Positions 3,179 through 35,108 of a DNA stretch of 64,000 bases are shown here, piece by piece. The position numbers and the translations under genes were made by a program. The notes under the pieces were generated by a model. That model was not told the origin of the DNA and did no database searches. It saw only the letters and a program-made list of their open reading frames with translations. How positions within the stretch are numbered: position 1 is the stretch's first letter; each line of letters opens with the position of its first letter. Where the stretch lies: NCBI RefSeq assembly GCF_022921055.1, contig NZ_CP095070.1:37381-101380 (forward strand), in the 5' to 3' direction. The stretch comes from Hymenobacter volaticus (lineage in GTDB: Bacteria > Bacteroidota > Bacteroidia > Cytophagales > Hymenobacteraceae).

Positions 3179-3308
3179 GGCGGGAAGAAGTTGGAATAAG
3201 AGTAGTGACGGCGTATTGCTCGCCCAATAAGATGGACGAAAAGCCACTGAACGAGATAACACCCAGCTGCATCAGGTGGCCAAATCGTTTGCTTAGAGGC
3301 GGTTTGGT

Positions 3309-4943
3309 TTAGAAGATTTCATCCAGCAGCAGGTACCGGTCCCGGTGTTGCTCCAACTCCAACCGGGTGTTCACATCCAGGTGCATCACCGGGGCGGGAA
3401 CAACTCGATTGATGGGCGCCCAGTTCGGCAGACCGGGGCCGCTGGGGGTGCCGGTTTTAATGAAACTGGCGAAGTATTGCTGCATCACCGCCGACACCTT
3501 GTAGTCGTCGGGGGTCCAGGCATAAATTTTATTGGTGGCCAGATTGCCCAGCGCGTATTCAATCTCGGCCGAATGCACCGCCCCACGAGCCGGTGGGGCC
3601 GTGGACGCCGCCGGGTTGGTGTTCTTCACTACTCCCCCGGCTAGCCCGGCCGTGGCGCCACCCACTTCTGGCCGCATGGCGGGCCGGGAGCGGCTATAGA
3701 AGAACCGGTACACGGGCTTGCCACCCCCGGTTTGGCTGTGCAGGTCGGCCCATTTCCAGGTACAGAACCCTAGAAACCCGTCGCTGGCCAAGTCGGTGGC
3801 CACCTGCTCGACCTCTTCGTCGGTGGTGGCCGCGTAGCGCTTGAGCACCTCTGGGGCCCGCGTTCCGTAGCGCTGCTGCACCGCCTGGGTATAGGCGGCC
3901 ACGGTGGGCTTTTGGTTGCCTAGTAAGGCCTGATAGCCCATTTCCTGGGAATTCCAGCCAACCAGCAGGGGCACTTTTGACTGCTCCCCGGCCGTGAAAA
4001 TGGCTTCGGGGGAGGTTGGGAGAAAGTAGCCGTCGACCACAGTGGTCCAGCGGATGCTGGGTTTGGCCGTCGCCTGAAGCAACTGATCGGCGGGCACGGC
4101 CTGCAAAGCCGCTTGGGAAGTGGCGCCCAGGGTTTCGGCAAACGTACGGCCGTCCTGCTCGGCTTCGGCCAAGGAGATAGGGGGCGCGGAGCCCAGGCCA
4201 ATCAACGAGCCGCTTTCGCCAATGGCTTGCGCAAACAAGTTCCTGGAGAGCGGCGAGGCCATGAGCGCACTCACCGAGCACGAGCCCGCCGATTCACCCG
4301 CAATGGTCACCTTGCCAGGGTCGCCGCCAAAGGCGGCAATATGTTGCTGCACCCAGCGCAGCGCCGCGGTTTGATCCAGAAAGGCGTAGTTGCCCGAGGC
4401 GTGGTGCCCCGACGATTGGGTGAGGGCCGGGTGAGCCAGAAAGCCGAAGACGCCCAGGCGGTAATTCACCGTAACGCTCACGATGCCCTTGCGGGCCATG
4501 CTTTCGCCGTCGTAGCGGGGTTCGGAGCCGTCGCCGGCCACCCAGCCCCCGCCGTAGAAATACACGAGTACGGGCAGGCGCTCCTGCCCCAGTTTGGCCG
4601 GCGTCCACACGTTCAGGTACAGGCAGTCCTCGCTCATGCCCCGGGAGCGGGAGTTCATGTCGCCAAAGACCGGCAGCTGCATGGGCTTGGGGCCGAACTG
4701 GTGGGCTTTGCGCACGCCCGACCAGGAGGCGAGCGGTTGGGGCTCTTTCCAGCGCAATGCCCCCACCGGGGGCTGGGCGAAGGGAATGCCTTTAAACGAG
4801 CGGATGCCACTCGCTTCGCGGACGCCTTCGAGCACGCCACTCGCCGTTTTGATCTGTGGGGCCAGGATGGTCTTTGGTTGCTGAGCCAAGGCGGGTAAGC
4901 AGGCCCCAACAACTGCCAGCAGAAGCAGGAAGAATACTCTCAT
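3309..4943 (-). CDS. Secreted type-B carboxylesterase
   Basis: A 544-aa alpha/beta-hydrolase that cleaves carboxylic esters. Seen: signal peptide MRVFFLLLLAVVGACLPALAQ, oxyanion-hole motif YGGGW near residue 130, nucleophile elbow GESAGS (Ser near 218), the acid-loop region around GWNSQEMGY, and the catalytic His in VHSAEIEYALGN near 450. The early EDCLYLNVWTP segment is typical of the family. An ATG three codons upstream (4952) is equally possible. Length is normal for the family. It sits in a minus-strand run with cupin, acetyltransferase and reductases; substrate unknown, but release of a phenolic or aromatic acid would fit its neighbours. Confidence 0.93.
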   Translation of the reverse strand: MRVFFLLLLAVVGACLPALAQQPKTILAPQIKTASGVLEGVREASGIRSFKGIPFAQPPVGALRWKEPQPLASWSGVRKAHQFGPKPMQLPVFGDMNSRSRGMSEDCLYLNVWTPAKLGQERLPVLVYFYGGGWVAGDGSEPRYDGESMARKGIVSVTVNYRLGVFGFLAHPALTQSSGHHASGNYAFLDQTAALRWVQQHIAAFGGDPGKVTIAGESAGSCSVSALMASPLSRNLFAQAIGESGSLIGLGSAPPISLAEAEQDGRTFAETLGATSQAALQAVPADQLLQATAKPSIRWTTVVDGYFLPTSPEAIFTAGEQSKVPLLVGWNSQEMGYQALLGNQKPTVAAYTQAVQQRYGTRAPEVLKRYAATTDEEVEQVATDLASDGFLGFCTWKWADLHSQTGGGKPVYRFFYSRSRPAMRPEVGGATAGLAGGVVKNTNPAASTAPPARGAVHSAEIEYALGNLATNKIYAWTPDDYKVSAVMQQYFASFIKTGTPSGPGLPNWAPINRVVPAPVMHLDVNTRLELEQHRDRYLLLDEIF

Positions 4944-12303: not shown

Positions 12304-13341
12304 TTAATCTTTAAAAATTTCAATACTTGATTGCACTTGCAAAGTTGGAGCTTTGCACAAAGGGGTTAAAGTATGATTATCAATAAAAGTTTGATGTGGG
12401 TTCATAGGATGCAGTTTAAATTCCTCACTAAAGTCAATATGAATAGTTCCTGCACAACAAATATTTGATTCTCTTCCTTCAGCAAATAAAGGAATTAGCT
12501 GGTTTCCATCATTACCAGGTATATTAGGGTTGCAAAACTTAGAGAGCTGAGTGCAAGCGATATGAATCAAAGGAATCTCTTTTTGAATTGCTGCTACAAC
12601 GTCTGGTTTGGGATTTTGAAATTTATCTCTACCAATTGAGAATAGCATAGCTTGGGGCTGCACTGCACGTGTGAAATCAGTTGCAAAAGTATTAGAGCCT
12701 TTACCGCGTCCAGCATTACCACCATGATGAGGGTATATGGCAACTCTAGCGTGAACATCCGCGTTTGCGGCTAGCATGTTGGAGAGTCCAACTGCATCTA
12801 TATCTCCAGGCAACAATGCTATCGGAACGTTATCGTCTATTAGCCTTATAACAGCACTTATAGAATTACTAGTTAGCTTACGGCCACTTCTATCAGTTGA
12901 GCCTGGTCCCCTAGCAGCTAAATACATAGAGGGAGCTAAAATCTCTATTGTTACTCTTCCAACTGAAATTGATTTAGATAGCCCAGTGTGAAGGGATGTA
13001 TTAAAAACGAGCTTTTTGTCGATATGGGCGTTATCAAGAGTGTATAATAAGTCGTCCCAAACTTCACTTTCTTTTGCGGAATCAGTATTCAAGTATACAG
13101 CTCCTATCGTAACTATTTCGGAAGATATTAATCCTATGAGGCCTGATATGTGATCAGCATCAGCGTGAGAAACCAATACATAATTGATGTGATCGATGCG
13201 CTCTTCTTCTATAAACTCCAAAAGCGCGGTACCCGGTCCTGTGTCAATAACAACTATTCCTTCGTTATCAAATAGAATTGAGGAGTTTCCGTGTCCTACA
13301 TCAATTATACTTAAGCTAGGTACATTGCTAATATTAACCAC
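12304..13341 (-). CDS. ComEC-like MBL-fold metallo-hydrolase (module i)
   Basis: A cytosolic metallo-beta-lactamase-fold enzyme of 345 aa, without the membrane channel of ComEC. Seen: SLSIIDVGHGNSSIL (the VGxG strand of ComEC/Rec2 proteins), IDTGPG, the metal motif SHADADHISG (second His replaced by Asp, as in ComEC), ALLPGDID and YPHHGGNAG. ComEC-type MBL domains are nucleases or phosphodiesterases. Start chosen as GTG at 13341, overlapping the stop of the receiver gene by 8 bp; an ATG at 13386 would overlap it by 53 bp. Last gene of a four-gene operon with methylase, kinase and receiver. A nucleic-acid or nucleotide substrate is inference. Confidence 0.85.
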   Translation of the reverse strand: MVNISNVPSLSIIDVGHGNSSILFDNEGIVVIDTGPGTALLEFIEEERIDHINYVLVSHADADHISGLIGLISSEIVTIGAVYLNTDSAKESEVWDDLLYTLDNAHIDKKLVFNTSLHTGLSKSISVGRVTIEILAPSMYLAARGPGSTDRSGRKLTSNSISAVIRLIDDNVPIALLPGDIDAVGLSNMLAANADVHARVAIYPHHGGNAGRGKGSNTFATDFTRAVQPQAMLFSIGRDKFQNPKPDVVAAIQKEIPLIHIACTQLSKFCNPNIPGNDGNQLIPLFAEGRESNICCAGTIHIDFSEEFKLHPMNPHQTFIDNHTLTPLCKAPTLQVQSSIEIFKD

Positions 13342-14017
13342 GAAACTGAAAATCTTTGATATAAACGTCTTCAATCTTTTCTGCACCCAAATTCACGTGG
13401 GCGAAAAACCTCACACCAGGATTAACCATGTGAAGTATGCTTTTATCAAATGATTGCATTGGTATTTTTATTCCGTTGCCACCTTTATTGCCATCCCATG
13501 CAGGAATAACTAACAATACAGTCTTAGTTGATATATCGATATCATCGATGCGTACTAAAGTCTGCCAAGGTTTACGCCTTTTTGAAAACTTACCTAAAAA
13601 AACTTCTTGCATACACTCCCTTAATACTTTCTCAAGGTGATCAACATTCTCTGTAAGCTCACGAGGCGTTAAAAGAGCTGGAATCTTATGTCTAATTGGT
13701 CTAATGTCTTCTATAATATCAGTAGTCCATCTTGTAACAAGAACAGCAGGAAAATGACGGTCGTAACAAGTGGCAACCAATTTAGCACCACTAAATCGGG
13801 CGTAATCATGGTGCGACAGATGGTGATCACATATTACTGCTTGTGAGTGAGCATAAATTGCTTCAAATGCTTCATTCTCACTAAAAAATGGACCAGTCAG
13901 TGGATATGCATCTATTCCCAGATCCTCAATTTCACCCCTAACCGTGTCTCTATTTGCGGGATTATCATCTATAACTGATAAAACATTGAGTTCGTACCCT
14001 TCTATTACAAGTGACAT
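13334..14017 (-). CDS. Receiver-domain protein with unknown C-terminal domain (module i)
   Basis: 227 aa. The N-terminal about 120 residues carry the features of a phospho-receiver: acidic pair DDNP (Asp17-Asp18), phospho-acceptor Asp64 in VICDHHLS, Thr95 in VLVTRW and Lys111 in KIPAL. The C-terminal about 80 residues are beta-rich (LVRIDDIDISTKTVLLVIPA, VRFFAHVNLGA) and match no DNA-binding output domain I know. It starts 2 bp after the kinase gene and ends inside the start of the MBL gene, so the kinase is its likely partner and the MBL its likely output. Confidence 0.8.
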   Translation of the reverse strand: MSLVIEGYELNVLSVIDDNPANRDTVRGEIEDLGIDAYPLTGPFFSENEAFEAIYAHSQAVICDHHLSHHDYARFSGAKLVATCYDRHFPAVLVTRWTTDIIEDIRPIRHKIPALLTPRELTENVDHLEKVLRECMQEVFLGKFSKRRKPWQTLVRIDDIDISTKTVLLVIPAWDGNKGGNGIKIPMQSFDKSILHMVNPGVRFFAHVNLGAEKIEDVYIKDFQFRG

Positions 14018-14019
14018 AG

Positions 14020-16083
14020 CTAAAAGCCTAAAATAGGAATAACAATCTGAAATTCAGCACCTCCTAACTCACCTTTAGGGATAGCTTCAACAGTTCCACC
14101 TAAGTCCCGAATAGTATCTCTAACTATAGTCAGACCTAACCCCGTTCCACTTCCGTAGCCAGTTTCACCCGGAAGCCATATGCTTTTAGGCTCGATATTT
14201 TCAATTCCAGGCCCATTATCAGCGAAACTAATTAATAACCCTGATTCATTTATTTCAGACTTTATACTGATGTTTCTATTGCCAATCTGCCTGTCGCCAA
14301 ATGCACGCAAGCTATTTACAATAAAATTAGCAATTACTGTTTCAAGTGAAGCCGCGCTTCCACGTAAATATGGTTTTCCTTGTGAAAACGAAGTAATAAC
14401 ATTCACATGCCTTTCTGACAAAATGCTGCTAAAATTTTCAATTGTAGCTAAAATGACCTGATGTACGTCAAGCCTTTGATTGCGCCGCTTATCGCGTTCC
14501 ACAAAACTTAAGGTCAAGCTTTGAAAGCCATTCATTAAAGCTGTTTGGGCCAATATAAGCTCGACTGGTGCCTTTAATGAACTTTCGTATTGATCACCTA
14601 ATATTGTTTTTGCTTTTTTTTGTATTCTAATTGTATTACGCTCTATCAAATCAATTGGTCGACTTGTCTCATGAGCAAAAACAGCTGACACAATGCCAAC
14701 AGTACTTAAGGTTCTATATAAAATCACTTCATTTCTAAGAGCAATTGCTTCATTTTCTCTTGCTTGCTCATACTTACGGAAAGACTTTTCTACAGCAAAT
14801 TTTTGTGCTGCCGGCAGAGTGTCAAGTGATTTAACTACTATTTCTCTTTCTTTCTTAACAGATTCTTTGGATTCAACCCGGGAGGATACTCGACGTAATT
14901 CTGCTTCTTGTAAACGTTCTCTAGCCATCCAATCTAGAGCATCTCCAGTAAATTTCTTAAGCTCGTAAAATGCCTCATTTTCAATTATTCCAGTTCTATC
15001 CGTCTTTTGAATAAAAACAGAATTTCCATTTTCAATAGCTACTCGTCCAATTGCGGTATTAGTGCTAGGTCTAAACTCAGGACTTCGAACGCGAGCTAGA
15101 TTCAAGTTCAACCAATCATCACCTGGGTTCCCGTAAGGGGCAACTCTTAGTCCATCAATATAAAGATGAACACCACCAAACTCTCGTAACCACTCACGAA
15201 CCTCAGATTGAGAAATATTTCTAGTAGAGAAAGTTTTAGCATCAATTAAGAAAACCCATAAGTCAAACTGAAGCGGTGGTAATAAATAGTGCGCTTTATC
15301 GCTTTTTGGTCTTATAGACGAATGTCCAGCTGCATATAACGTTTTGCCATTAAAATCCTTTACAATAGCAGATGCCATACCATTATTATCGACCTCAGCG
15401 TGTAGATGAAATTCACTTTCCTTAAAATATTTAAATGAAACTAGGTATTCAAGGTCAACAAAGTCTTTAGTTTTGAGTATTGGGTGGAACCCTGATGGAT
15501 TGTCCCCAAATGGATCAGCAAGTAATATAATACCACGTGCTAAACGTTTAACATCCATTCTTGTAAGGCGATCTCTGAGATTACTTATTTTTATCTCAGT
15601 GCCGTGTTGCTTATTATCACAAATTATCTTTTTTATTGTAATACTAACATCATCTACGCGTCTTACTGTGTCAAATTTGCTCCAATCAATCGCGACGTAG
15701 TACTCACTAAAAAACTCGGATGATGGTCTAGTTAATAATTCTGCATACTCTCCCATTCTAAGAGCTGCTAATCGGCCTAGCCCCTTATTACCTGCTGCAA
15801 TTCTACCAAGTTTTGTGCGCTTATTTGTTGATTTTTGTGATTCACCAAGAACTAGCCATCCATCTACAATTTCTTCCTCGGTCATTCCATAACCGTCATC
15901 GGAGACTCGTATGTAACCTCCCGGCTGGTCAATTTCTACCAGTTCAATAGTACAATTGAACGCATCTGCATCATAAGCATTCTTTACTAATTCAAGTATG
16001 CCTTGATCAAAACCTATATTCAACTCTTCTCCTAATCTGCGGAGGATGCTCGTAGCAAATCTGATATGGGCTTTTGTGCTCAT
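14020..16083 (-). CDS. Histidine kinase-like protein with two GHKL ATPase domains (module i)
   Basis: 687 aa. The N-terminal GHKL (Hsp90/MORC/MutL-like) ATPase has ELVKNAYDADA (N-box, Asn35), VSDDGYGMT (Asp62) and GNKGLGRLAA (98-107). A helical middle contains VFAHETSRPIDLIERN with His471 in H-box context, and the C-terminus has a kinase-type ATPase: NFIVNSLRAFG (N-box), ADNGPGI (622-627), GSGTGLGLTIV (644-654). Two ATPase domains in one chain is not a standard sensor kinase. No membrane segment, so it senses something internal. It starts at an ATG overlapping the methylase stop by one base (TGATG) and is followed 2 bp later by the receiver gene. A role in sensing DNA state or phage is inferred from context. 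Confidence 0.85.
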   Translation of the reverse strand: MSTKAHIRFATSILRRLGEELNIGFDQGILELVKNAYDADAFNCTIELVEIDQPGGYIRVSDDGYGMTEEEIVDGWLVLGESQKSTNKRTKLGRIAAGNKGLGRLAALRMGEYAELLTRPSSEFFSEYYVAIDWSKFDTVRRVDDVSITIKKIICDNKQHGTEIKISNLRDRLTRMDVKRLARGIILLADPFGDNPSGFHPILKTKDFVDLEYLVSFKYFKESEFHLHAEVDNNGMASAIVKDFNGKTLYAAGHSSIRPKSDKAHYLLPPLQFDLWVFLIDAKTFSTRNISQSEVREWLREFGGVHLYIDGLRVAPYGNPGDDWLNLNLARVRSPEFRPSTNTAIGRVAIENGNSVFIQKTDRTGIIENEAFYELKKFTGDALDWMARERLQEAELRRVSSRVESKESVKKEREIVVKSLDTLPAAQKFAVEKSFRKYEQARENEAIALRNEVILYRTLSTVGIVSAVFAHETSRPIDLIERNTIRIQKKAKTILGDQYESSLKAPVELILAQTALMNGFQSLTLSFVERDKRRNQRLDVHQVILATIENFSSILSERHVNVITSFSQGKPYLRGSAASLETVIANFIVNSLRAFGDRQIGNRNISIKSEINESGLLISFADNGPGIENIEPKSIWLPGETGYGSGTGLGLTIVRDTIRDLGGTVEAIPKGELGGAEFQIVIPILGF

Positions 16084-17438
16084 CAACCTATCTGAATGGG
16101 AAGCTCTCGTAATGATGCAACAGTTAAATGGCGGCAACGGATGCGTTCATTAAGCCAAGTGTCTGTAGTAGATGTATTGCATTGCGCCTGAAGTCTGAGA
16201 CAGGATTCTAACGATCCGTTAAGGGGTTGTATAACAATTAAATGATTTTCTACAGCAACATCTTCGATCTCATCAGTTGCCTCTATTATCGTTGCAACAA
16301 GTCGACGAGCATCGGAAGGACTAGATGTTCTCCTTACGACTAGAAAAGGAGGTGTATAACATGTTCCTCCATACTTACGGACTGAGGTAAAGGAATCAAT
16401 AACCATTCTTCCCCATGGCGGACATGTGAATGCATCAATATAAGGCTTTGCTGGAGCTGATGCGTTTGGAAACCCTACTAATGGATTCCTATGTGGTACA
16501 ACTGAACCTACACGAATCCTGAATGCTTCCTCTAACTTACCTAACTCCCAAGGTTCTTGATTGTGGAAGGGCCACCATGCAACAGATTTGATATCTGCTA
16601 TGTAGTTAGGGTTTATTTTAAAATACCTTGCATTAGTAAATACGACAAGGAAAACATCAACATCAGCCCAAGAGTCAAATCTGCCAATTGACTCGATATG
16701 TTGAATTGGAGCACATGATTCTACTAAACCTCTCCATCGAGAATATCTCACTCCTGTTCTGAGGACGTCAGGTAGAATACACGCGATAACCTTAATTCCT
16801 TCTTTAATAGCGCGTTCAATGAAAAGGCTAGCGAGAGAAACTTTTCCAGTTGACCATGTACAATCTAATGATGCATCGTATGGTCCAAAGGGAGGATTTA
16901 TTATGAGGCAATCTGTGTGATGCCACGGAACATTGTCTAAAGCATCCCTTTGATAGATATTAGTGAATAACAATAAAGCATATTCAGGAATAATATCAGG
17001 TTGCGCACCTCTTTCCAGAGCCAGTATAGCTAAACGGCACTTTGTCGCTTCTACAAACTCTTTATGAACATCATAGGCAAATAATCTGCTATTCCAGTGC
17101 TTAATAGTTTCCGAAAGCAGTGGTAAAACAGGCATACAACGAGCACACGCAATTAACAGATTTCCTGCTCCACAAGCTGGGTCTAAAACAGATTCGCCTT
17201 TTTCAATATTATCTTTTAAAAAACCAGCTAATCTTTCTGATAATTCTGAACCCGTAAAAAAAGCACTAGCCTCTTTACGTTCCTCAAGAGTCACATGCTT
17301 ACGAAGTTCTCGTCCTGCTTCTCCATCTAGTAGAAGTTTAACTTCGTTTTCTAATTCACTTGATGTGATTCTATCTTTTATATAAAAAGATTTAAGCACC
17401 TCTTTCAGCCTTATTAGAAATGGTGTGTAATCTTTCAT
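16083..17438 (-). CDS. N6-adenine DNA methyltransferase-like protein (module i)
   Basis: 451 aa, class I SAM-dependent methyltransferase. Seen: an N-terminal helical region as in HsdM-type proteins, ASAFFTGSELSERLAGFL (residues 58-74, SAM-adjacent motif), SAM loop DPACGAGNLL (86-95), and catalytic motif IV NPPFGPYD (181-188) that marks N6-adenine or related amino-methylases. First gene of the four-gene module. No restriction endonuclease or specificity subunit is adjacent. The C-terminal half could recognise DNA. Either it marks host DNA for self/non-self discrimination or it is itself the effector. Confidence 0.88.
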   Translation of the reverse strand: MKDYTPFLIRLKEVLKSFYIKDRITSSELENEVKLLLDGEAGRELRKHVTLEERKEASAFFTGSELSERLAGFLKDNIEKGESVLDPACGAGNLLIACARCMPVLPLLSETIKHWNSRLFAYDVHKEFVEATKCRLAILALERGAQPDIIPEYALLLFTNIYQRDALDNVPWHHTDCLIINPPFGPYDASLDCTWSTGKVSLASLFIERAIKEGIKVIACILPDVLRTGVRYSRWRGLVESCAPIQHIESIGRFDSWADVDVFLVVFTNARYFKINPNYIADIKSVAWWPFHNQEPWELGKLEEAFRIRVGSVVPHRNPLVGFPNASAPAKPYIDAFTCPPWGRMVIDSFTSVRKYGGTCYTPPFLVVRRTSSPSDARRLVATIIEATDEIEDVAVENHLIVIQPLNGSLESCLRLQAQCNTSTTDTWLNERIRCRHLTVASLRELPIQIG

Positions 17439-17822
17439 TAATTATCTTAACAAGTGTCTCGAAGCTTTATTTACGCAAAATACAAGCAAATTATACATTA
17501 CAGCTACCAGTGCTTTAATATAGAGAAGGTATGAATACCTATAGTGACGTTTATCGCCACTATTGTCGCTGAATCATAGTTGCTAGATTAGATCTTTCCA
17601 ATTGGGCACTCACAGTTACTAACTCATGGGTGAGCGCTTAACTATAACATAGCTGCTCCAGATAGCACTTTACGAAGTATCTGAAGCTAACTGTTGACTA
17701 CTGTATATATCACCCCGGTGGGGGCAGGTCCACATTGTCTATGAAACTGTTATATCAAGCCGCATACTGTCGTTGACTGGGGAAGTTATACTTGACATGG
17801 TGTAGTTGTAGTTACTTCCTTC
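17439..17822. other. Intergenic region between modules i and ii
   Basis: About 380 bp without a supportable gene. It would hold the promoter of the methylase operon on the minus strand; the 17439-17560 part is A+T-rich. I see no clear repeat. Confidence 0.5.
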
Positions 17823-19127
17823 TTATAGAACTACAGGCCAATATAATTTGACTTGCGCTTCGGTTAAATTTTCAGCGTGGCGGTTAAGCAATGAAAGCTG
17901 AATAGATGATAGGGGAGTAAGGTTAGTACCGATACCGCAGACTATCTGCCACTCTTTAGTTGTAAGGTCACGGGCTTCCAGTGCTAGGTAATCAAGCTGT
18001 TGCTCTAGATATGTTGTGATTGCATTTCGATGTTCTCTAGGATTGGTGACCCATTCAGGACGTAACTGTCTGGCCTCTATTACTGCCGGTGGAATATTGC
18101 CTTGAGCCAAGTTATTGATGAAGCCAGGAATGCTATTTTTTAATTCCCAGCCCAATGACAAATAGGCAACACACTTACTATTGTCTGTTGCCCGTTGAAA
18201 CAGATGTGCCATCATCTGCGAATTTTTGATGCGGTTCATAAACAAATCTACTGTGCGAAGCAGCAGAGCTATCGTATTGAAGTAAGGGCGATTACCCAAT
18301 GGGCTTAAGCCAGCTCCGGCATCTGATACAACAATAGTGTTGCACTCGTAGCGGCTGTTTAACTGTGTGAGTTTCTGCATGCCCTGGTTATCATACACCC
18401 CACCGTCAATAAGCTGAGGCTGGGCATAGACGGTGTCAGCAGGCTCCCGAAAATATTTAAGGTCAATGCTGATAGGCGTAAAAGCAAATGGTACGCAAGA
18501 GGAAGCTGTCACTGCCCGCGCTATTGGGAAATGGGTACCGTCAAAATACACTGGGTGCTGGGCATAAGTATAAGTAGAGTCAGCCATAGAATCTCGCGAA
18601 AACGTAAACGGCCGACCTGTTTGCAGGTTCGAACTGCCAATCGCTAAAACAGGCTTGTCAGGCAACTGCTGCAGCGTTCGTCCTTGGTAGAAAAAAGCAT
18701 CATAGGCCTTTTCTATTTCTTGGCTAATAGGAAGCAGCTTAAACTGAAATCGGAGAACAATGTAAAATAAGCCAACCAGCAGAAGTAGGGCTAACGGCGC
18801 CCAGCGGGTAAACAGTAGGAAACCGCATATAACGAGAAGAGCTAGTACAAGTAGCAGAAAACGTATAAACACCCAAGAGCGCAACGCATAGCTAATAATG
18901 CTATAGCGGCGTAACTTCTCTGTCATCCCGGCATGAAACTCTTCGAAGTTTCCCTCATGCAAGCAGTAAGCCGCCCCGGTGATGGAACCACCGGAAATAG
19001 TTGAGATAACTTCGATGCTCGAAAGCAGCCCTAATTCATGCAATTTTTTCAGTGTGCCTAAGTGAAAAGCAGCAGCTCGATAACCACCACCGGATAGAGC
19101 CAAGCCAAAACGGCGAACGAATGTCAT
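17823..19127 (-). CDS. Membrane-anchored patatin-like phospholipase (module ii)
   Basis: 434 aa, predicted to release fatty acids from membrane lipids. Seen: oxyanion motif LSGGGYRAAAFHLGTL (12-27), nucleophile strand ISTISGGSITGAAY with the catalytic Ser, and the catalytic Asp in LIDGGVYDNQG. Between them, about residues 93-145, is a hydrophobic hairpin (WVFIRFLLLVLALLVICGFL and WAPLALLLLVGLFYIVL) giving two membrane helices, inserted in the patatin fold. Patatin-type enzymes are known abortive-infection effectors, for example CapV in CBASS. It follows an MBL gene by 58 bp in the same direction, so the pair forms one unit. Confidence 0.9.
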   Translation of the reverse strand: MTFVRRFGLALSGGGYRAAAFHLGTLKKLHELGLLSSIEVISTISGGSITGAAYCLHEGNFEEFHAGMTEKLRRYSIISYALRSWVFIRFLLLVLALLVICGFLLFTRWAPLALLLLVGLFYIVLRFQFKLLPISQEIEKAYDAFFYQGRTLQQLPDKPVLAIGSSNLQTGRPFTFSRDSMADSTYTYAQHPVYFDGTHFPIARAVTASSCVPFAFTPISIDLKYFREPADTVYAQPQLIDGGVYDNQGMQKLTQLNSRYECNTIVVSDAGAGLSPLGNRPYFNTIALLLRTVDLFMNRIKNSQMMAHLFQRATDNSKCVAYLSLGWELKNSIPGFINNLAQGNIPPAVIEARQLRPEWVTNPREHRNAITTYLEQQLDYLALEARDLTTKEWQIVCGIGTNLTPLSSIQLSLLNRHAENLTEAQVKLYWPVVL

Positions 19128-19185
19128 CCTTATTTTATGCTGAATATGTTAGTGAATAAGCGACTACTTATTCCTTTTGAGTTGT

Positions 19186-20241
19186 CTAGCTCAGCACTAC
19201 CTGCTGGGCGCTCGTGCATGGAAGAAAGGTCAAGCTGTCTGTAACAAACCTTTGGCAGGAGCCACGCGGTAAGTCACCAGTAGAGTAGATGACGCAGCCT
19301 GGAACCGTCTGCTTAAGGCACTCTAGCAAGTCCGACCCGGGATGCATGCCATCATTGGAGGCCGCTACCCAGAATCTATTAGCTTCAAACTTTTGCATTC
19401 GCGCGGCATTCAGATTGTAGCGGCTGCCGTGATGAGGCAGTTGTACTAATTGGTAGAGGCTGAGTTGATGACCTCCGTGTTCTATTGACTCAAAAGATGG
19501 CTCACTGGCATCGGCTGTGAATAGGCATTTATTACCCTGCTCTGTTAACAGTTCCAGTACTACACTGGCTTTGTTATCATGCGAAGGATCTTTGTATTTA
19601 GCAATTGCGCGGCAGGGGTCAGCTCCGGCCTCCGTTTCAGCGAGTAATATTTTCAAGAGGGGCCCCCGAGCTATATCACGTCCAGCTGCTTCCATCATTT
19701 GTTTGTAGAATGTTGGGGTCGGACCCAAAATGCGTAGGTAGACTTGATAAGGCTTCGGTAGTAGCGTAGTACCAGCAAAAGCGTTTCGGTGCGCAATACC
19801 GAGTTGTTGCAACTGCTTGTCAAGGCTGCTGGCCTGCTTTAGTGACTCGGCCAGAAACTGTGCCCTTTCCCAAAGCTGGGAATTCTTGAATATATACCGG
19901 GTCTTATCTCGTACTTTTTCCAAAAGTACGCGACTACCACAAGGACCAATTGGGTTGTTGAAATAAACTGCCTCCACTTGATTGCCCTGCTGGTGAAGCT
20001 GCGTTACCAAATGTTCCATTCCACCCAAATGGTCACTATGCATGTGCGTATTGACAGCAATGATATAAGGTAATGGCTGTAGCGCTCCCTTTATGCAAGC
20101 GTTAAAATGGTCAAGAATCAACTTGGCATCACCCTTCTTTCCGGCGTCTAAAAAGACTACGTAGTCCCGTGTATGGTCGCGGGCCCAAATGATACTGGCA
20201 TCGGCCTTATCAAGGCTTAGAACATCAATGGCAAAGTGCAT
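19186..20241 (-). CDS. ComEC-like MBL-fold metallo-hydrolase (module ii)
   Basis: 351 aa. Seen: metal motif NTHMHSDHLGGME (HxHxDH), LFTADAS, and QLPHHGSRYN as in ComEC/Rec2-family MBL domains. Start at MHFAIDVLSLDKADAS (20241); the upstream residues of the open frame look non-coding. Operon-like with the downstream patatin. Its divergent neighbour (20486) is another MBL gene, sharing a 244-bp intergenic region, which places modules ii and iii back to back. Could produce or remove a signal that gates the phospholipase; not shown by sequence. Confidence 0.87.
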   Translation of the reverse strand: MHFAIDVLSLDKADASIIWARDHTRDYVVFLDAGKKGDAKLILDHFNACIKGALQPLPYIIAVNTHMHSDHLGGMEHLVTQLHQQGNQVEAVYFNNPIGPCGSRVLLEKVRDKTRYIFKNSQLWERAQFLAESLKQASSLDKQLQQLGIAHRNAFAGTTLLPKPYQVYLRILGPTPTFYKQMMEAAGRDIARGPLLKILLAETEAGADPCRAIAKYKDPSHDNKASVVLELLTEQGNKCLFTADASEPSFESIEHGGHQLSLYQLVQLPHHGSRYNLNAARMQKFEANRFWVAASNDGMHPGSDLLECLKQTVPGCVIYSTGDLPRGSCQRFVTDSLTFLPCTSAQQVVLS

Positions 20242-20485
20242 AAGAGCGGGGGCTAATGAATCGAAAATTAGCAAGCCAAGAGCTGCCAAGCAATTCACAT
20301 ACCCGCACTATGTACTGGCTAGCGAAGCTAGGCTATATAAAGCGCAACGCTACCACCATATAATATATGCCTCACACCTAGCTGCCATATCTTTTAGCAA
20401 AAAAGCTAAAATTCATGGCAAAGCTATTGTCTTTGGGCAACTGAAATATTACTTTGCCTAGCTCTTTATATTATTCACTCCGCTT

Positions 20486-21580
20486 ATGTCTTCTAAAGCC
20501 AAAGAGGTTATTGTACCGCCAGTAGGCGTGTTCCGGGTAGTTTTTCTCTATGTAGGACAGGGCGACGCAACCATTCTGGTCGTGCCGTACGGCTCGACAT
20601 TTCGTTACGTGCTACTAGACAATAATATTGACCGTAGCGCCGGGGGCATCAACACGGAAGAGCTGCTCAAAGACCTGCTCGACGACGGACTCGACGTGTT
20701 TATAAATACGCACCCTCACCGCGACCACACCGAAGGTATTGAGGCCATCCACGAAACTACTCCAATCAAGGAAATCTGGCACTCAGGGCATAAACCTGGC
20801 AAGGACAGCGATAGTGCCTATCAGGAAATGCGCCGGGTAATAAAGGATATCGGCCCGGCCAACGAGTTTAAGCTTTTTGGCAGTAATTCGACTAACAAGA
20901 TTCGTAAGGCTGATGGCAGTACGACAGTGACAAAATTATTGGGTGACATTACTTATCAAGTATTGTCGCCCGCCGAATATTTATGCGATGATATTGCTGA
21001 AGGTGAGGATAAGGAACGAGACCGTAGAATTCATGAGCACTGCGCCGTTATTCGGTTTTCCTATGGCAACCCCACGCGGCATATTCTGATGACAGGCGAT
21101 GCTGACCGCGTGGCTTGGGAAGAACACATTATGCCCTACCATCAGACAATGGTCAAGGCTGACGTACTAAGCGCGGTACATCACGGCTCGCGCACGTTCT
21201 TCAAGTACCACGGCGACGACGAGGATGTGTATGAAACTCACATTGAAACCATCGCACCGGAGTACGTGATAGTTAGCGCCCCTAAGCAGGACGAGAGCCG
21301 TCATAAGCACCCACATGATGATGCAATGGACTTGTACGAAGAGCATGTCAGCGACCCGGCCAACGTGTTACACTCCGGCAAAAACAGGGAATCATTTATC
21401 GTAGACATTCACCCTGATGGCAACTGGACGGTAACTCCTGACCAGGAACTATTAGATGCCTACGGGTACGACAATGACGGAGGGGATGGCAGCAAAACCA
21501 GCGGCCGAAGCGCGTCGGTTAGTTCCTCGCGTCCGGGCACCCGTTTGGATAAACAACCTATGGGAACTGAGCATGAGTAA
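20486..21580 (+). CDS. ComEC-like MBL-fold metallo-hydrolase (module iii)
   Basis: 364 aa. Seen: VVFLYVGQGDATILVV (the VGQGDA strand of ComEC MBL domains), metal motif FINTHPHRDHTEGIE, LMTGDADRVAWEEHI, and SAVHHGSRTFF. The C-terminal tail is low-complexity and charged, ending in GTEHE. Its stop codon overlaps the ATG of the E2-E1-JAB gene by 8 bp (ATGAGTAA), so the two are translationally coupled. The tail might be a target of the conjugation enzyme, by analogy with Cap2 acting on a neighbouring protein; that is a guess. Confidence 0.88.
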   Translation: MSSKAKEVIVPPVGVFRVVFLYVGQGDATILVVPYGSTFRYVLLDNNIDRSAGGINTEELLKDLLDDGLDVFINTHPHRDHTEGIEAIHETTPIKEIWHSGHKPGKDSDSAYQEMRRVIKDIGPANEFKLFGSNSTNKIRKADGSTTVTKLLGDITYQVLSPAEYLCDDIAEGEDKERDRRIHEHCAVIRFSYGNPTRHILMTGDADRVAWEEHIMPYHQTMVKADVLSAVHHGSRTFFKYHGDDEDVYETHIETIAPEYVIVSAPKQDESRHKHPHDDAMDLYEEHVSDPANVLHSGKNRESFIVDIHPDGNWTVTPDQELLDAYGYDNDGGDGSKTSGRSASVSSSRPGTRLDKQPMGTEHE

Positions 21581-23922
21581 GTGGTTTGAGCGCCATCCGG
21601 ACATCCTGTATGCAGAAGCCGACCAATTGGCCTCCACTAGTAACTACGAGCAGCTGCAGCACGAGCTGAGCAATCTCTTTCTCTCAGTTGGTAATATCCT
21701 CGTTCGAGCTAATGGCTGCCTCACGCGATTTCCCGTGGCTATTGTGTATGCTGAAGCTACTCCCTATGCTTTGCCCGCAGTATTTCTACTCGACAAGCCG
21801 TTGGTGGAAACGGAAGTAAAAACCTTGGCTACACTGACCTGTGATGCCGCCGCTCAAGTACTTCAACAGAGAGCCAAGTTTTATTTCAAGCGCCACCAGA
21901 ACCCAGACGGCAGTCTCTGCTTACTAGAGCAGGATAACCTTGATCGTCATGGGGCCGAGTTTTATGATGCCCGCAGCATTATTCGCCGGGTGCAACAGTG
22001 GCTGACGGCACACCTGCTAGGCCAGTCCATGCCGGAAAGCCAAGAGGTAGAACTGCATGCGCATTACCCTCACCGACTACCCGTGCACGTGTTGCTAACT
22101 GCGGCATTCTATGGAGTTGGGGTTGGTCGGGGCCGGTTTTACCTGCTACCGATAGACCTGTATGCTACGCAACAAGAACACCAACTATATATTGGTGCAG
22201 GCCTTATGTCCGACCCCGCACCGACTGATGGCACAATAATCTGGCCGCACATGCCGCAGGGCCTGCGTACTCCGCAACAGCTAGCTCGTCAGCCCGGCAA
22301 GCTCAAACAGGCAATCAAAGACAATAAGTTGCTAGAAGGCTACTGGTGGTCGCTGTCTAGCGAGCCACCCGTATTTGCCGATGGGTTGGTCCTGTTACAA
22401 TATCTAACTGACAATGCTTCTACCGAGGGGAGCAGTCCGCCGATTTGTTGTGGAAACCCCTCAAAGATCGGCGCGATTACATTTTCATTGGTTTGTGTTT
22501 TCCCAACCGACACGCACAGCCGGAATGGCTGCTGTTGACCTTAGAAAAAACGGGCAACTTGTTCAGAGCTGACTACGCACGGCGCAACGTGGCTGAGTTG
22601 CTTCAGAACTACCGAGTGGCTTCATGTCACAGCGAGGCATTTCGCGACAAAGATTATCATCTGCGTAACAGTGGCCGGGTATCTTATGAATTGGTGCGCG
22701 AGCAGGCTATGACCGTTATAGGTTGCGGGGCACTCGGCAGTGAGATTGCTGACTCACTAGGGAAGGCTGGGGTAGGACGCCTGAAGCTTCTCGATAATCA
22801 AACGCAGTATCCGCACAACAGCGTCAGGCACCTTGCAGGCCTGCACTTAGCTACCCTACCCAAAGCGGTGGCCGTAGCACAGGTAGTAGCCGATCATAAT
22901 CCCTTTGTCAAGCTCGAGATAGTAGTGGAAGATATACTTCGTGGGGAGTTTGCCCAATACATGTTACCAGTTGGCATCGGCATCTGCTCTATAGCTGATG
23001 ACAACACAGAAGCCTACCTAAACGAACAGGCAGTGTCGCACAAGCGAACAATTTTCTACGCCCGGGCACTTCGTGGTGGCAAAGCTGCCCGTATTTTCCG
23101 GGTTGTCCCAGGCATAGATGCGTGTTTCCACTGTCTGACGCTATATCGCCACGAACACCACCTGGACTTTATAGATGTACCCGAAGACACTGCTTTACCC
23201 ACCTTGCGTAATGAGTGCAACAACCCTATCCGACCGGCTAGCGCAGCCGACCTCAAGCTGATTGCAGCCATGACCAGCCGCTTACTCCTCGATCATTTGC
23301 AAAATCCTGCCCCCGCTGCTCCTAACCATTGGGTATGGACTACCGAGACTCTTCCTGACCTGCCAGAAAATATAGGTGTGCCATTCAGCCTGAATATGCG
23401 TAGCCTGCCACCACACCCAAATTGCCCTTATTGCCAAGCGTTACATAAGTTGGGAGTGCGCATAGAACATAGCGCATTGGACTTTATGCGGCAATTGACC
23501 TTGGCCACCCCGGGGATTGAAACCGGCGGGATCCTGATTGGAAAGGTTAGTGCCGGCCTCGTGCATATCCAGTACGCTTCGCCCCCGGACCTAAAGCCGT
23601 GCGAACAGCTACACGCTTCGAGCGTGATGTAGAGTTTTGTCAGCAGTTTCTTAATGTTTATGCGGCTCAAGGGCTGCTGTACCTAGGGGAATGGCATAGT
23701 CATCCGGATGAAAATAATATGCCCAGCACCACGGATTTGACTAGCTTAGCCCGAATTGCGAAACAGCCGCAGTACCTAACCACAATGCCTATTATGCTCA
23801 TTTTTGCCCGCTCTGGCGAAGTAGCCTGCACGGTGCATCCCGTTAGCGCAGCTTACTATCCATGTGTGTTAGACACGGTCGATCCCACTGTGGAAACTAT
23901 CGAGGAGTCGCCTGCGCATTAG
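21573..23922 (+). CDS. E2-E1-JAB ubiquitin-like conjugation/deconjugation protein (two frame breaks)
   Basis: About 783 aa when two single-base losses are repaired (G run 22427-22430; C run 23582-23586). In order: an E2-like domain with HQNPDGSLCLLE, catalytic Cys near 116, and a following WL helix; a middle domain of about 180 residues; an E1/ThiF domain with VIGCGALGSEIADSLG (near 380), zinc-type Cys in CFHCL and NCPYCQ, and a candidate catalytic Cys in NECNNPI (near 547); and a C-terminal JAB metalloprotease with IETGGILIG and EWHSHPDENNMPSTTDL (JAMM residues, near 706). Cap2 of CBASS is an E2-E1 fusion with a separate JAB (Cap3); here all three are one chain. Partner: the MBL gene it overlaps. 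Confidence 0.85.
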
Positions 23923-31220: not shown

Positions 31221-32279
31221 TTAAGGAATAGTTAGAATTGTAGTGCTTTGAACCTGTTTATAAGCTGGGTCAAACGCTTGATTTTTTTTCCAGAGCGCAT
31301 AACATAATAGAAGTAGTTTGCGCATAACAGCAATCAATGGAGCTTTGGCATTGGATTTACGCACTTTTAATCCTTCGAAAAAGGCCTTAAGTCGTGGATT
31401 GCAGCGTTTGCTACTCATCGCGGCCATGTACAGAGCCGTGCGTAATCGCGTATTACCTCGCCGGGAGATACTGCTCGGCTTGGAAGTCAGTCCGCTTTGT
31501 TTTTGCACAACATCCAACCCCGCATAAGAAGCAAGCTGACGTTCATTTTCCGTTAAAGAGAATCCACTCGTCTCACTAACCACAGCAATAGCCGTTGCTA
31601 GACCAACCCCCGGTACGCTTGTTAACAGAGCGATTTTGGACTGTAATTCAGAATCTTTTGCCACCAATTGGGCCAACTCCTGATTCACCTCTTCTATATG
31701 TCGGGCAAGCATTTGCTGCCGCTCCACCAGCCGGGCTATAGTGCGGGCGTTTGGCTGGTAAGTGTGCTCGTAAGCGTGCAACTTGTTTTTGAGCCGTGTG
31801 CTATCATGCTTAAGCGCGTCGAGTTCGCGGTAAAGGCCTCGCATAATACGCATTGTGGAAGTTGCAGCTGTCCAGATAGGCAAATCATGTCGTTCTAAGC
31901 CTAAACGGCACAGCATGCGAGCATCCTGCTTATCAGTTTTGCCTTTCTGCTTTGTGCTATGAGCAAAGTGCTTGACCTTGAAGGGTAGTAACACGCTTAC
32001 TGATTGCTGGTGGTCAGCTAGAAAGTAAGCTAATTCCTCATAGTAAACGCCTGTCGCCTCGACCACAAATATAAGTGGGACTCTGGCTAGCCGTAGTTTC
32101 TTTACCCAAGTTAACAGATCGGCAAATCCGGCTTGCGTGTTAGCAAATGTTTTATCGTCGGGCTTATCAAGTTGAAGTTGCAGATTAGTATCCAGTGAAC
32201 CAAAACGAGCAACAAAGCTATCCTTGGCAATGTCGATACCGACAGCATATTTGAGAAATTTAGAACGGGAGATTGGCAT
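31221..32279 (-). CDS. IS110-family transposase
   Basis: 352 aa DEDD transposase. Seen: KYAVGIDIAKDSF (first Asp), FVVEATGVYYEELAYFL (Glu), GKTDKQDARMLCRLGL (two Asp), and the C-terminal transposase_20 region LLTSVPGVGLATAIAVVSE, QLASYAGLDVVQKQSG and SRRGNTRLRTALYMAAMS with its conserved Ser. Start at MPISRSKFLKYAVGID (32279). Intact length for the family. IS110 members use a structured RNA from their non-coding ends to guide insertion, so the flanks matter. Confidence 0.93.
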   Translation of the reverse strand: MPISRSKFLKYAVGIDIAKDSFVARFGSLDTNLQLQLDKPDDKTFANTQAGFADLLTWVKKLRLARVPLIFVVEATGVYYEELAYFLADHQQSVSVLLPFKVKHFAHSTKQKGKTDKQDARMLCRLGLERHDLPIWTAATSTMRIMRGLYRELDALKHDSTRLKNKLHAYEHTYQPNARTIARLVERQQMLARHIEEVNQELAQLVAKDSELQSKIALLTSVPGVGLATAIAVVSETSGFSLTENERQLASYAGLDVVQKQSGLTSKPSSISRRGNTRLRTALYMAAMSSKRCNPRLKAFFEGLKVRKSNAKAPLIAVMRKLLLLCYALWKKNQAFDPAYKQVQSTTILTIP

Positions 32280-33171
32280 AAGCAGAAGATGGGAAATAGT
32301 GGAGTTAGCACAGCCAAACTTGTTTTTGCCACAACTATCCTCGTAGATGCGAGATGCTTTAATTCCCAAAGGAGCTCTCTAGATACTGTTCAGCCTCAAG
32401 GCAAAAACGGAAATAGAGCACCATTTCTTACAATCAAGATCACTTCGTGTCTTTGCTTTAGTTTGGTGTCTCTATTTCCTGGTTTAAGCTGTTGTAAAGC
32501 TATACGATCAATCATGAATTAGGTCTATAATTTAGGACTTTGCCACTAAAATTAATTGCGTTGATTTAAGCCAAAATCCTTCTAAATTCTACTTTAGAAG
32601 CTATATTTTAGAATAAATCAGTCTGACATAAAATTGTGTTCCACTAGTAAACTGAGTACATCAATATATTTTTCTTAAAGGAAGTCATTAAGTAGAATTT
32701 CCATCTAACCAATCATTAGTTTAGACATAGCTGCAAACTATGAGCAGTAAGAATGAACGGACAGGCACTCCAACTTCGAAGGCTATAAGAAAACGCCAAC
32801 ATAGTTTTTAATTTTTGCTGCCCACCTATCGAAGTTCTTCCAGTTGAAAGTTGTGTTTAGCGATACTGATGTGGCTGCCTCTCGCTTAGCTTAGTGTTAT
32901 GCATACTTCCGAACCGTCCCTATGGGCAGTATGGCCAACCTGACATGCAACTTATTTAAACTGCTTGATTTACTTTGAGAAGTCACCCTACTCACACAGG
33001 TAGGCATTGAACTAGATCCTTCCTAGCATATTGTGTAGTACTAAATAATATATGATTGGATTTACATATCAACCCGTTGATTAAATCAGAACTTATACAA
33101 AGCCATATTGTGAAGATAAATTGTCTCTTGATAACCTAGTGGCCCCGCAGAATCTGTGTTATTATTTTCAT
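32280..33171. other. A+T-rich stretch without a gene
   Basis: About 890 bp between the IS110 transposase and the recombinase gene. The right non-coding end of the IS is expected near its start, upstream of the transposase. No coding frame with protein character. Confidence 0.5.
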
Positions 33172-33833
33172 TTACGCACGCCATAGTAAGCGTAGCACGG
33201 ACATCTTCAGGAACGTTTGTCCGCGACGGGTGCGAAAGCCCGCCTCATTCAATTCGGTGGCAATCTGCAGCAGCGAAAGCCCCTGCTTATGTAGCGACAT
33301 GGCGAGGCGTTTGGCTTGGCGGTTCTGCGGATTCTCAGCCGCATTAACTTTGCGTATTTGCAAGCTCTTGGCAATGGCCGCCATGGTCAGGTTCTGTGGG
33401 TTGCCCAACACCTCCCCCTCGCCTTCTTAGCGGCGAGGGCATCCTTGGTGCGCTTGCTAATTGTCTCCCGCTCGTGTTGGGCAATGATAGCAAAGATTCC
33501 CACCGTAAGGGTATTGGCGTCGGGCATGTCGCAGCAAACGAAGTCCACGCCTGAATCCCGCAAGGCTAGGATAAAGCCCGCATTGCGCGAAAGCCGGTCG
33601 AGCTTGGCAATGAGCAGCGTGGCCCGGGCTTCTCGCGCGGCGGCGATAGCCGCCAGCAACTGCGGGCGCTGGTTTTTCTTGCCGCTCTCTACCTCGACGA
33701 ATTCGGCCAGCAGCTGTCCCGGTTGTGGCGCGAAGGCATGCACGGCCGCGCGTTGCGCTTCGAGGCCCAGGCCGGACTGGCCTTGCCGAACGGTGGAGAC
33801 GCGGTAGTAGGGAACGTAGCGACGGGGGAGCAT
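33172..33833 (-). CDS. Serine recombinase/resolvase (frame break near 33416)
   Basis: About 220 aa when one G is added to the run at 33414-33418. N-terminal resolvase domain with YYRVSTVRQGQSGLGLEAQR (catalytic Ser), ARATLLIAKLDRLSRN and GIFAIIAQHERETISKRTKD, then after the break GEVLGNPQNLTMAAIAKSLQ and a C-terminal HTH (KQGLSLLQIATELNEAGFRT). A 46-bp near-perfect palindrome lies 37 bp upstream of the start, a good candidate for its target site. Likely maintains the plasmid by dimer resolution or moves a cassette. Confidence 0.82.
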
Positions 33834-33870
33834 GCGAGGGAAAAACGGGTGGAAAGAGCCCGCAAGTTAG

Positions 33871-33916
33871 GGATCGTAACGTTTATTGAACGCACGTTCA
33901 ATAAACGTTACGATCC
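33871..33916. repeat. 46-bp palindrome upstream of the recombinase
   Basis: Two perfect 22-bp arms (33871-33892 and 33895-33916) separated by CA; the centre reads TTATTGAACGCACGTTCAATAA across 33883-33904. The spacing puts it 37 bp before the recombinase start. Fits a crossover or operator site. Confidence 0.75.
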
Positions 33917-34920: not shown

Positions 34921-34923
34921 TTA

Positions 34924-35080: not shown

Positions 35081-35108
35081 TTTAACTGAACCAAGACTAC
35101 TACCCATC

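Follow-up and report, generated by a model that had tools for sequence, protein, structure and literature searches.

Three ComEC-like MBL genes with different partners lie side by side in Hymenobacter volaticus, one of them in a widespread kinase-receiver operon

The window analysed here, a stretch of 64,000 nucleotides from H. volaticus, carries three ComEC-like MBL genes within 11.6 kb, each adjoining a different partner set. In module 1 the partners of the MBL are a DNA methyltransferase (MTase), a double-GHKL kinase and a receiver protein; this module is widespread and, so far as our searches reach, unnamed, and it is best read as a DNase that a phosphorelay switches and that is coupled to a DNA methylase. 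We lean towards the view that each of the three MBLs would be a metal-dependent effector DNase that stays inactive until the partner detects infection, and that module 1 would act as a phosphorelay running from a DNA-sensing kinase to the receiver to MBL1. The three unrelated gene sets are probably directed against viruses.

Results

An earlier note on this DNA had placed MBL genes at 12304-13341, 19186-20241 and 20486-21580, each with its own partners. Open reading frames were confirmed at all three places, and domain searches, with a structure model for the receiver, confirmed the partners: MTase, kinase and receiver for MBL1, a patatin for MBL2 and the pieces of an E2-E1-JAB gene for MBL3. 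All three proteins bear the ComEC-type motifs it had described (HxDxDH or HxHxDH, and HHG), namely HADADH and PHHGG in MBL1, HMHSDH and PHHGS in MBL2, and HPHRDH and VHHGS in MBL3. They also lack membrane helices as it had stated, none being convincing by Kyte-Doolittle analysis (MBL1 has two borderline windows, the other two have none), and Pfam found the Competence domain in none of them (345-364 aa), unlike in housekeeping ComEC. The MBL is indeed a recurrent part set on varied partners, without the membrane portion of the housekeeping protein.

GC content by module is 0.38-0.40, 0.46-0.49 and 0.51-0.53, with flanks at 0.57-0.61, and the three MBLs show scant mutual similarity (BLASTP E 0.06 or worse). 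Because the modules differ in GC and their MBLs are hardly alike, the triple layout is not one system: the modules were separately acquired and lie side by side. A tandem duplication giving the MBLs a recent common origin is ruled out by the BLASTP values (E at least 0.06). Plasmid genes are present on the contig, which is probably a plasmid. The CD-NTase expected of CBASS was not found by Pfam or PADLOC among the ten island proteins tested.

Module 1 lies on the minus strand. It comprises an N6-type MTase recognized by its domain and motifs (16083..17438, 451 aa; DPACGAG, NPPF), the kinase (14020..16083, 687 aa), whose start is overlapped by the MTase stop, the receiver protein (13334..14017, 227 aa) and MBL1 (12304..13341, 345 aa). 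The kinase joins a MORC/MutL-like N-terminal ATPase (HATPase_c_3) to a histidine kinase (HATPase_c); its N-terminus matches MORC3/MutL and its C-terminus ZraS, and H471 and E472 are invariant across 18 sequences. The receiver protein has no Pfam match, and its AF2 model (pLDDT 95) displays a receiver fold with a C-terminal beta-rich domain, no HTH or other DNA-binding domain being seen in it. D17, D18 and D64 are kept in 38 of 38 aligned receivers, and the usual receiver lysine is absent from the conserved residues.

MBL1 is a predicted effector DNase on the strength of its motifs, profile and fold. H59, D61, D63, H64, D180 and H205, together with four cysteines, are kept in 37/37 aligned sequences. 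ComEC, which is regarded as a nuclease, is the nearest solved structure by profile search (4e-19), and its MBL domain is nearest by fold search (9ic4, 2e-15). CbpE comes second by fold (1e-12; profile 6e-9), and Apyc1 matches by profile at 6.5e-5. The MBL1 model has a pLDDT of 87, falling below 50 at its two ends only; blocks near 201-220 and 271-280 reach 70-76, and the core contains no disordered loop.

The earlier note knew of no named system with this layout, which stands for module 1: PADLOC, NCBIfam and Pfam yielded no named defence system for it. PADLOC matches were weak (kinase, REase_II 30 bits; MTase, MTase_II 58 and mad2 39; MBL1, RTasMBL 30), the kinase scored 65 of 550 bits against NCBIfam BbrUII, and its other best NCBIfam matches were ordinary histidine kinases, below their cut-offs. 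A search of journal literature, mostly non-subscription, found no papers on kinase-receiver-MBL operons.

Across ten phyla the operon keeps one fixed order: MTase, double-GHKL kinase, receiver, MBL. Among assessable loci picked by the kinase alone, the receiver is present in 37 of 37, the MBL lies beside it in 35 of 36, and the MTase precedes the kinase in 23 of 36, the two ORFs overlapping in 20/22 by longest-ORF starts; at a single locus (L039) the kinase and receiver occur without an MBL. The same layout recurs beyond the kinase-picked set in two further Bacteroidota genomes (a third match was the same locus as L025 and was counted once), on a Burkholderia plasmid and at locus L011, where the MTase and a BsuBI/PstI restriction domain form one fusion protein. 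Distances between kinases correlate with those between MBL1 proteins at 0.94 (36 loci), and those between receivers and MBL1 at 0.92 (35 loci); none of 2000 permutations reached either value. Occurrence is patchy, with 3 of 394 other Bacteroidota genomes and 5 of 146 Cyanobacteria, the query's own included. Three partial matches to the kinase are phage-borne, none covering >80% of it. An apparent receiver-MBL fusion in Brevundimonas (L041, a 525-aa ORF) was rejected: the receiver has its own ORF, which overlaps in a different frame, and the extra N-terminus comes from out-of-frame translation.

We also scanned 101 flanking proteins from 21 non-cyanobacterial loci with PADLOC at 1e-15, without a control set. 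Matches fell to 32 families, each of the 25 families listed being matched by one protein. Known defence genes nearby are few and the defence-island signal around module 1 is weak.

In Cyanobacteria, scans with phmmer, Pfam and motifs found no MTase upstream of any of the 11 assessable module 1 loci, and the module 1 MTase family was absent at 1e-20 from 10 of 10 such genomes (positive controls 10/10). The MTase at L049 was missed by phmmer, but in the genes upstream of the cyanobacterial kinases none came to light with Pfam or motifs either. Several cyanobacterial triads adjoin housekeeping genes and their kinases form a single clade, from which a domesticated role could be suggested. Among 42 operons of a sister kinase family, 15 have an HNH nuclease at the position of the MBL; its Cys, His and Asn are retained in all 15, and 7 of these 15 operons carry an MTase of the module 1 family.

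Module 2, also on the minus strand, consists of a membrane patatin, identified by its domain as a patatin-like phospholipase (17823..19127, 434 aa), with a strong hydrophobic stretch by Kyte-Doolittle hydropathy, and upstream of it MBL2 (19186..20241, 351 aa), of Lamassu/PDC-M48B type by PADLOC. MBL2 scores 131 bits against PDC-M48B, 79 against LmuA and 61 against RTasMBL, aligns nearly end to end with the PDC-M48B and Lamassu MBL models, and has ComEC as its closest solved structure. Its pairing with the patatin is the least conserved of the three. No MBL2 relative was found in the genome contig collection and a search of plasmids gave two distant matches; for the H. segetis MBL2 (P0004), no patatin could be assigned to its contig among the 120 of 1025 patatin matches listed. 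Of the 10 patatin relatives that could be assessed, 6 have a PLD-like gene upstream.

Module 3 lies on the plus strand and represents a divergent offshoot of the 6a type, which is already known. MBL3 (20486..21580, 364 aa), divergent 6A-MBL-type, is followed by an E2-E1-JAB gene that the earlier note had taken as a partner; its pieces are present, but not as one open frame. The E2 part (21456..22538) is below the Pfam cut-off and scores 28 bits against PADLOC E1-E2; E1 with the N-terminal half of JAB (22445..23632; ThiF, Prok-JAB) is in a different frame, and the C-terminal half of JAB (23599..23922; EWHSHP...S..D, Prok-JAB) in a third. In 3/3 MBL3 relatives the MBL is followed by E2-E1-JAB, there a single ORF of 779-815 aa. 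NCBIfam scores stay below both cut-offs for MBL3 (46.6 of 220 bits) and the E1 piece (94.6 of 320); intact E2-E1-JAB relatives reach 142 and 139 of 320, and the MBL of L016 47 of 220.

Partner conservation, the check proposed for these MBLs, bore out MBL1 (35/36 loci) and MBL3 (3/3); for MBL2 the patatin partner is inferred in only one further contig. The association of MBL1 and MBL3 with their partners is not chance, since their orthologues retain them across genomes.

Discussion

Module 1 resembles several described systems in part. In the paraMORC two-component-like restriction-modification (R-M) systems (HEF_HK PF19191, Response_reg_2 PF19192), as presented in the part of PMC8011034 used here, an HATPase_c_3 kinase adjoins receiver-like and R-M genes, including HNH, as in module 1, whose GHKL kinase stands by a receiver (37/37) and near a DNA MTase (23/36). 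Unlike theirs, the module 1 proteins match neither Pfam family (E 0.01), the MTase is of N6 type where that text stresses C5, and an MBL serves as effector; the words 'lactamase', 'ComEC' and 'MBL' do not occur in the main text of PMC8011034. The MORC/paraMORC R-M operons, in the portion of PMC2292703 concerned, likewise combine a GHKL ATPase with nucleases in mobile, R-M-like operons; in module 1, by contrast, the GHKL domain shares one protein with an entire histidine kinase and is associated with an MBL, and the main text of PMC2292703 contains neither 'receiver' nor 'lactamase'.

The gated MBL nuclease-protease pairs (Hachiman, Avs1, Lamassu, DRT, Canu) are described, in the relevant part of PMC12799240, as repeated acquisitions of a ComEC-like MBL acting as DNase effector, and share with our modules an MBL plugged onto unrelated defence systems. 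MBL2 is related to defence MBL models, matching those of PDC-M48B and Lamassu; its partner, however, is a patatin, with no protease or SMC gene alongside among the proteins tested, the JAB of module 3 apart. Neither module 1 nor module 2 has a protease gene beside its MBL (ten proteins tested), the MBL1 model is without the disordered insertions that block the active site in gated pairs, and the partners of MBL1 are a kinase and a receiver; the main text of PMC12799240 does not contain 'kinase', 'patatin' or 'JAB'. The JAB of module 3 is a candidate protease for MBL gating. Module 3 itself has the triple E2-E1-JAB protein next to an MBL that defines the 6a operons, described in 2006 in the part of PMC1779556 cited here, so that a named type exists for it ('6A-MBL' in NCBIfam); it and its nearest relatives nonetheless fall below the curated 6A-MBL cut-offs, and the window gene is frame-broken.

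Gene order, co-inheritance, conserved active sites, folds and the exchange of MBL for HNH suggest how module 1 may work, its phosphotransfer, DNase activity, trigger and part in phage defence all being putative. The MORC/MutL-like GHKL clamp of the kinase would sense the state of DNA or an infection intermediate; the histidine-kinase half would autophosphorylate and hand the phosphate to D64 of the receiver, which, having no visible DNA-binding domain, would release or activate MBL1, and MBL1 would then cut DNA. The MTase may mark host DNA or set the threshold in most lineages, yet appears dispensable. The low GC of module 1, the plasmid genes on the contig and the patchy occurrence favour this reading; counting against it are the weak defence-island signal, the cyanobacterial triads beside housekeeping genes, the phosphodiesterase matches of MBL1, the locus L039 and the lysine missing from the conserved receiver residues.

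That module 1 is instead a regulatory two-component system, with an MBL that generates or clears a signalling nucleotide or phospho-ester, we judge unlikely. The MBL fold does include phosphodiesterases, and CbpE and Apyc1 match MBL1; ComEC, however, is far closer by both profile and fold, an HNH nuclease takes the MBL slot in sister operons, the receiver model has no DNA-binding domain, and the ten proteins tested included neither a cyclase nor a CD-NTase. The earlier proposal of the MBL as a shared producer or remover of signals finds no support: ComEC is nearest, HNH replaces the MBL, and related defence MBLs have been shown to be DNases (PMC12799240, in the part concerned). For MBL1, the role of effector nuclease is likelier than that of signal enzyme. 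It is quite unlikely, too, that module 1 works as ordinary R-M, with the MBL as a constitutive restriction enzyme and the MTase shielding the host. An MTase upstream in 23/36 loci and overlapping the kinase ORF in 20/22, the HNH genes of the sister operons and the BsuBI/PstI fusion at L011 would suit it, but a constitutive nuclease would hardly tolerate the absence of the MTase seen at 11/11 assessable cyanobacterial loci and in 10/10 genomes (for the module 1 family, to which the genome test is limited), and the active sites of kinase and receiver are conserved. Classical R-M systems always have their cognate MTase; upstream of the assessable cyanobacterial loci it is absent, and therefore module 1 is no simple R-M system. 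As the MTase is dispensable, the nuclease must be off by default.

For module 2, an unlikely alternative is that the patatin and MBL2 attack lipids as a pair, with MBL2 a phospholipase, presumably akin to NAPE-PLD, and not a nuclease. PLD-family genes replace MBL2 upstream of the same patatin in 6/10 assessable relatives, and an MBL2-like MBL elsewhere shares its island with a Tle1-like phospholipase; MBL2 is nevertheless closest to the ComEC structure and to Lamassu, RT-associated and PDC-M48B MBLs, and PLD-like domains also occur as nucleases. It is very improbable that the three modules work together as a single defence system: they are adjacent within 11.6 kb, and at L012 and L111 a 6A-MBL pair is directly followed by an MBL2-like MBL or a patatin, but they differ in GC and strand, their MBLs are hardly alike, module 3 is frame-broken, and no locus listed in our neighbourhood surveys has all three.

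To return to the phosphorelay-switched DNase, it is quite possible, though we propose it tentatively, that MTase, double-GHKL kinase, receiver and MBL or HNH constitute a class of bacterial immunity in which a MORC-like DNA clamp, carrying its own histidine kinase, directs a phosphorelay at a nuclease and not at transcription. Such a phospho-switched restriction system would span ten phyla, its nucleases being exchangeable and its cyanobacterial branch lacking the methylase. Two-component phosphotransfer is known mainly as a transcription switch. If module 1 acts as proposed, it would directly control a DNA-cutting effector in many phyla, the MORC-type ATPase fold would be placed at the sensing step, and the theme of the swappable MBL nuclease would extend from gating by proteases to gating by phosphorylation.

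Three MBL genes with separate partner sets

The open reading frames and partner genes reported in the earlier note are present at their positions: module 1 (an N6-type DNA methyltransferase (MTase), a double-GHKL kinase, a receiver and MBL1; 12304-17438, reverse strand), module 2 (a patatin, 17823-19127, and MBL2, 19186-20241, both reverse) and module 3 (MBL3, 20486-21580, and an E2-E1-JAB gene, 21456-23922, both forward). The metal-site motifs and HHG are found in all three ComEC-like metallo-beta-lactamase-fold (MBL) proteins, none of which shows a convincing membrane helix. In the patatin, one segment is strongly hydrophobic. The observation of three MBLs, each with its own partner set, was therefore correct. 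The three proteins match each other by BLASTP at E 0.06 or worse. GC content differs among the modules (0.38-0.40 for module 1, 0.46-0.49 for the patatin with MBL2, and 0.51-0.53 for module 3) and from the flanks (left 0.61, right 0.57), which points to three separate acquisitions. The contig is probably a plasmid, judging from its genes for ParA (35031-35867) and a Rep3 initiator (36596-37855); these lie in a region (31221-40731) that also holds an IS110 transposase and an ImpB/UmuC-type polymerase with DUF4113.

Modules 2 and 3

Relatives of MBL2 are few: a protein search (1541 candidates) gave eight besides itself, and the family sample had relatives in 2/199 other genomes, one of them weak. 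MBL2 matches the models PDC-M48B (131 bits), LmuA (79) and RTasMBL (61), and may carry gate insertions, since its metal motif lies 203 residues from HHG, whereas MBL1 has 145 residues there and MBL3 155. The patatin was detected at 1e-40 in 10/119 other genomes of the genus. In the 10 assessable loci (L120 is cut), the upstream gene is PLD-like in six (label from PF13091, run on L116 alone) and a 6A-MBL pair, that is E2-E1-JAB beside an MBL, in one (Fibrella, L111). In two others the patatin adjoins genes for an M48-like protease and a protein with MBL motifs, convergent in L118 and on the same strand in L119; the M48 label of such genes comes from an HExxH motif in their sequences, with no Pfam match. 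In the last, L117, the patatin occupies two open reading frames downstream of an unassigned 1418-aa protein. MBL2 seems to change partners, because it stands with a patatin on one further contig (8548 bases, a recurrence deduced from P0002 (79%) and P0131 (85%), listed from the same source), while its relative in L012 comes directly after an E2-E1-JAB gene and its weak relative in L013 has no partner of these kinds in view. Within 9 kb, L012 (4245-13331) holds three different MBLs, E2-E1-JAB, an M48-like protease and a Tle1-like phospholipase.

Relatives of MBL3 (genomes G148, G141 and G142) are followed in 3/3 cases by one long E2-E1-JAB reading frame and a membrane protein of 193 aa; for two of the latter, a search gave no match in the window at E 0.01. 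PMC1779556 describes a type 6a, in which E2-E1-JAB almost always adjoins a metallo-beta-lactamase. Module 3 shares this arrangement with the type as described there, but its branch falls below the NCBIfam 6A-MBL cut-offs, which L012 and L111 do reach. The window's E2-E1-JAB gene runs through three frames, two of which share out the JAB domain; the frame changes lie within 22406-22460 and near 23581-23587, beside a CCCCC run, and reflect either decay or sequencing error.

Conservation of module 1

MBL1 occurs in 1/199 other genomes of the family sample, at a locus (L011) where kinase, receiver and MBL keep the window's order. The kinase there is preceded by an MTase that carries a fused BsuBI/PstI restriction domain (1995-4556). 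The kinase gave 2346 matches including the query at E 1e-3 among 7997 scored; among the matches listed, the 119 others show 48-64% identity and come in part from named cyanobacteria, acidobacteria and actinobacteria. We scanned an 18-sequence kinase alignment against genome contigs and took the best 80 of 565 loci. The first 38 of these 80 (L017-L054) encode close relatives, 38-50% identical, and the match spans nearly the whole kinase except in L048 (residues 3-434). In this part of the best 80 of 565, 37/37 loci have the receiver (L048 not assessable; in L041 recognised by eye in another frame), an MBL1-family gene lies past it in 35/36 (exception L039; L048 and L051 stop short of this position), and an MTase lies directly upstream in 23/36 (L029 and L051 not assessable), 22 being found by phmmer and that of L049 by Pfam. 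The 13 loci of the same best-80 selection that lack it are 11 cyanobacterial ones (10 genomes), Thiomargarita L039 and Marinomonas L042; in these, neither Pfam on one upstream gene per locus nor a motif scan of reading frames up to 2.6 kb upstream, which does mark L049, revealed an MTase. Outside the kinase-chosen set, 3/394 other Bacteroidota genomes carry the kinase, all three with the four genes (one is the same locus as L025), as does a Burkholderia aenigmatica plasmid. The annotation of a gene about 6.5 kb upstream of the latter operon is HerA, an anti-phage-associated helicase. At L125 (1-2753), a second double-GHKL kinase and a receiver-like gene lie about 3 kb from an MTase-kinase-receiver-MBL operon.

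Distances between the proteins are correlated: 0.94 for kinase-MBL (36 loci), 0.92 for receiver-MBL (35) and kinase-receiver (36), 0.76 for MBL-MTase (21), 0.68 for kinase-MTase (21) and 0.65 for receiver-MTase (20), with 0/2000 permutations as high for any of the six pairs (window and L011 included where the gene is present; L048, L050 and L051 excluded). The kinase tree covers ten labelled phyla, the cyanobacteria forming one supported group.

In MBL1, H59, D61, D63, H64, D180 and H205 are conserved in 37/37 aligned proteins, as are four cysteines (263, 270, 296 and 329) that lie on the C-terminal side of the metal site and perhaps form a zinc cluster peculiar to this family. ComEC ranks first in its profile search (4e-19), and the ComEC MBL domain 9ic4 is the best fold match of its model. 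Disordered gates as in protease-activated MBLs are not apparent in this model (pLDDT 87), because only its two ends fall below 50, with 70-76 near 201-220 and 271-280. The receiver keeps D17, D18 and D64 in 38/38 aligned proteins; its model combines a receiver fold with a beta-rich C-terminal domain, and no helix-turn-helix was seen in it. The C-terminal half of the kinase resembles ZraS (1e-22), the N-terminal half MORC3 and MutL (about 3e-4). All 18 aligned kinases have H471 and E472, which are present in 38 and 37 of a wider 40, truncated and split proteins included. A K360-T-D-R motif of the N-terminal half, also invariant in the 18, may represent the S5-domain lysine of MutL/MORC.

Role of the MBL in module 1

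The other 42 of the best 80 of 565 loci (L055-L096) encode more distant sister kinases, 24-31% identical. In this selection a receiver-like gene is followed by an HNH nuclease in 15/42 and by the U237 family in 11/42; among the genes shown around these kinases, no MBL1-profile match lies directly downstream, a 15-bit match at L055 being on the opposite strand. U237 is a conserved family in the effector slot (L080, 10295-11008, and 10 other loci). Cysteines, a histidine and asparagines are conserved in 15/15 HNH proteins (assigned by Pfam on L069 alone). Seven of the 15 HNH loci have an MTase of the MBL-operon family, encoded in L073 on the opposite strand; the match in an eighth locus, L055, is weaker. 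An MBL and a recognised nuclease fold thus alternate on the same scaffold, which favours a nuclease role for the MBL. Related MBLs are treated in PMC12799240: HamM of Hachiman cuts DNA once cleaved by a protease, and Avs1a is cleaved and required for defence.

A nuclease beside an MTase could be a simple restriction-modification system. Against this, the profile of this MTase family had no match at 1e-20 in 10/10 triad-carrying cyanobacterial genomes, with matches in 10/10 positive controls. Since a constitutive nuclease would hardly be tolerated in such genomes, we infer that the nuclease is inactive in its default state and that the kinase switches it. A defence role is disfavoured by the few known defence genes flanking the non-cyanobacterial loci and by several cyanobacterial triads adjoining housekeeping genes (dapB, an EF-G-like gene, transketolase); other cyanobacterial triads adjoin integrase or Uma2 genes. 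In L030 and L044, a Uma2 putative endonuclease gene lies upstream of the triad. The MTase-less cyanobacterial clade (loci within L027-L052) might be a domesticated form, against which counts its presence in only 5/146 sampled genomes, the query's own included.

The proposal that a common MBL is plugged onto varied partners thus holds in outline, but the evidence favours a DNase effector over a signal enzyme, and three independent modules over one system. Module 1, an operon that spans phyla and joins kinase, receiver and MBL genes to that of a DNA methylase, is the part most deserving attention; no name for it was found in three profile libraries or in the literature searched.
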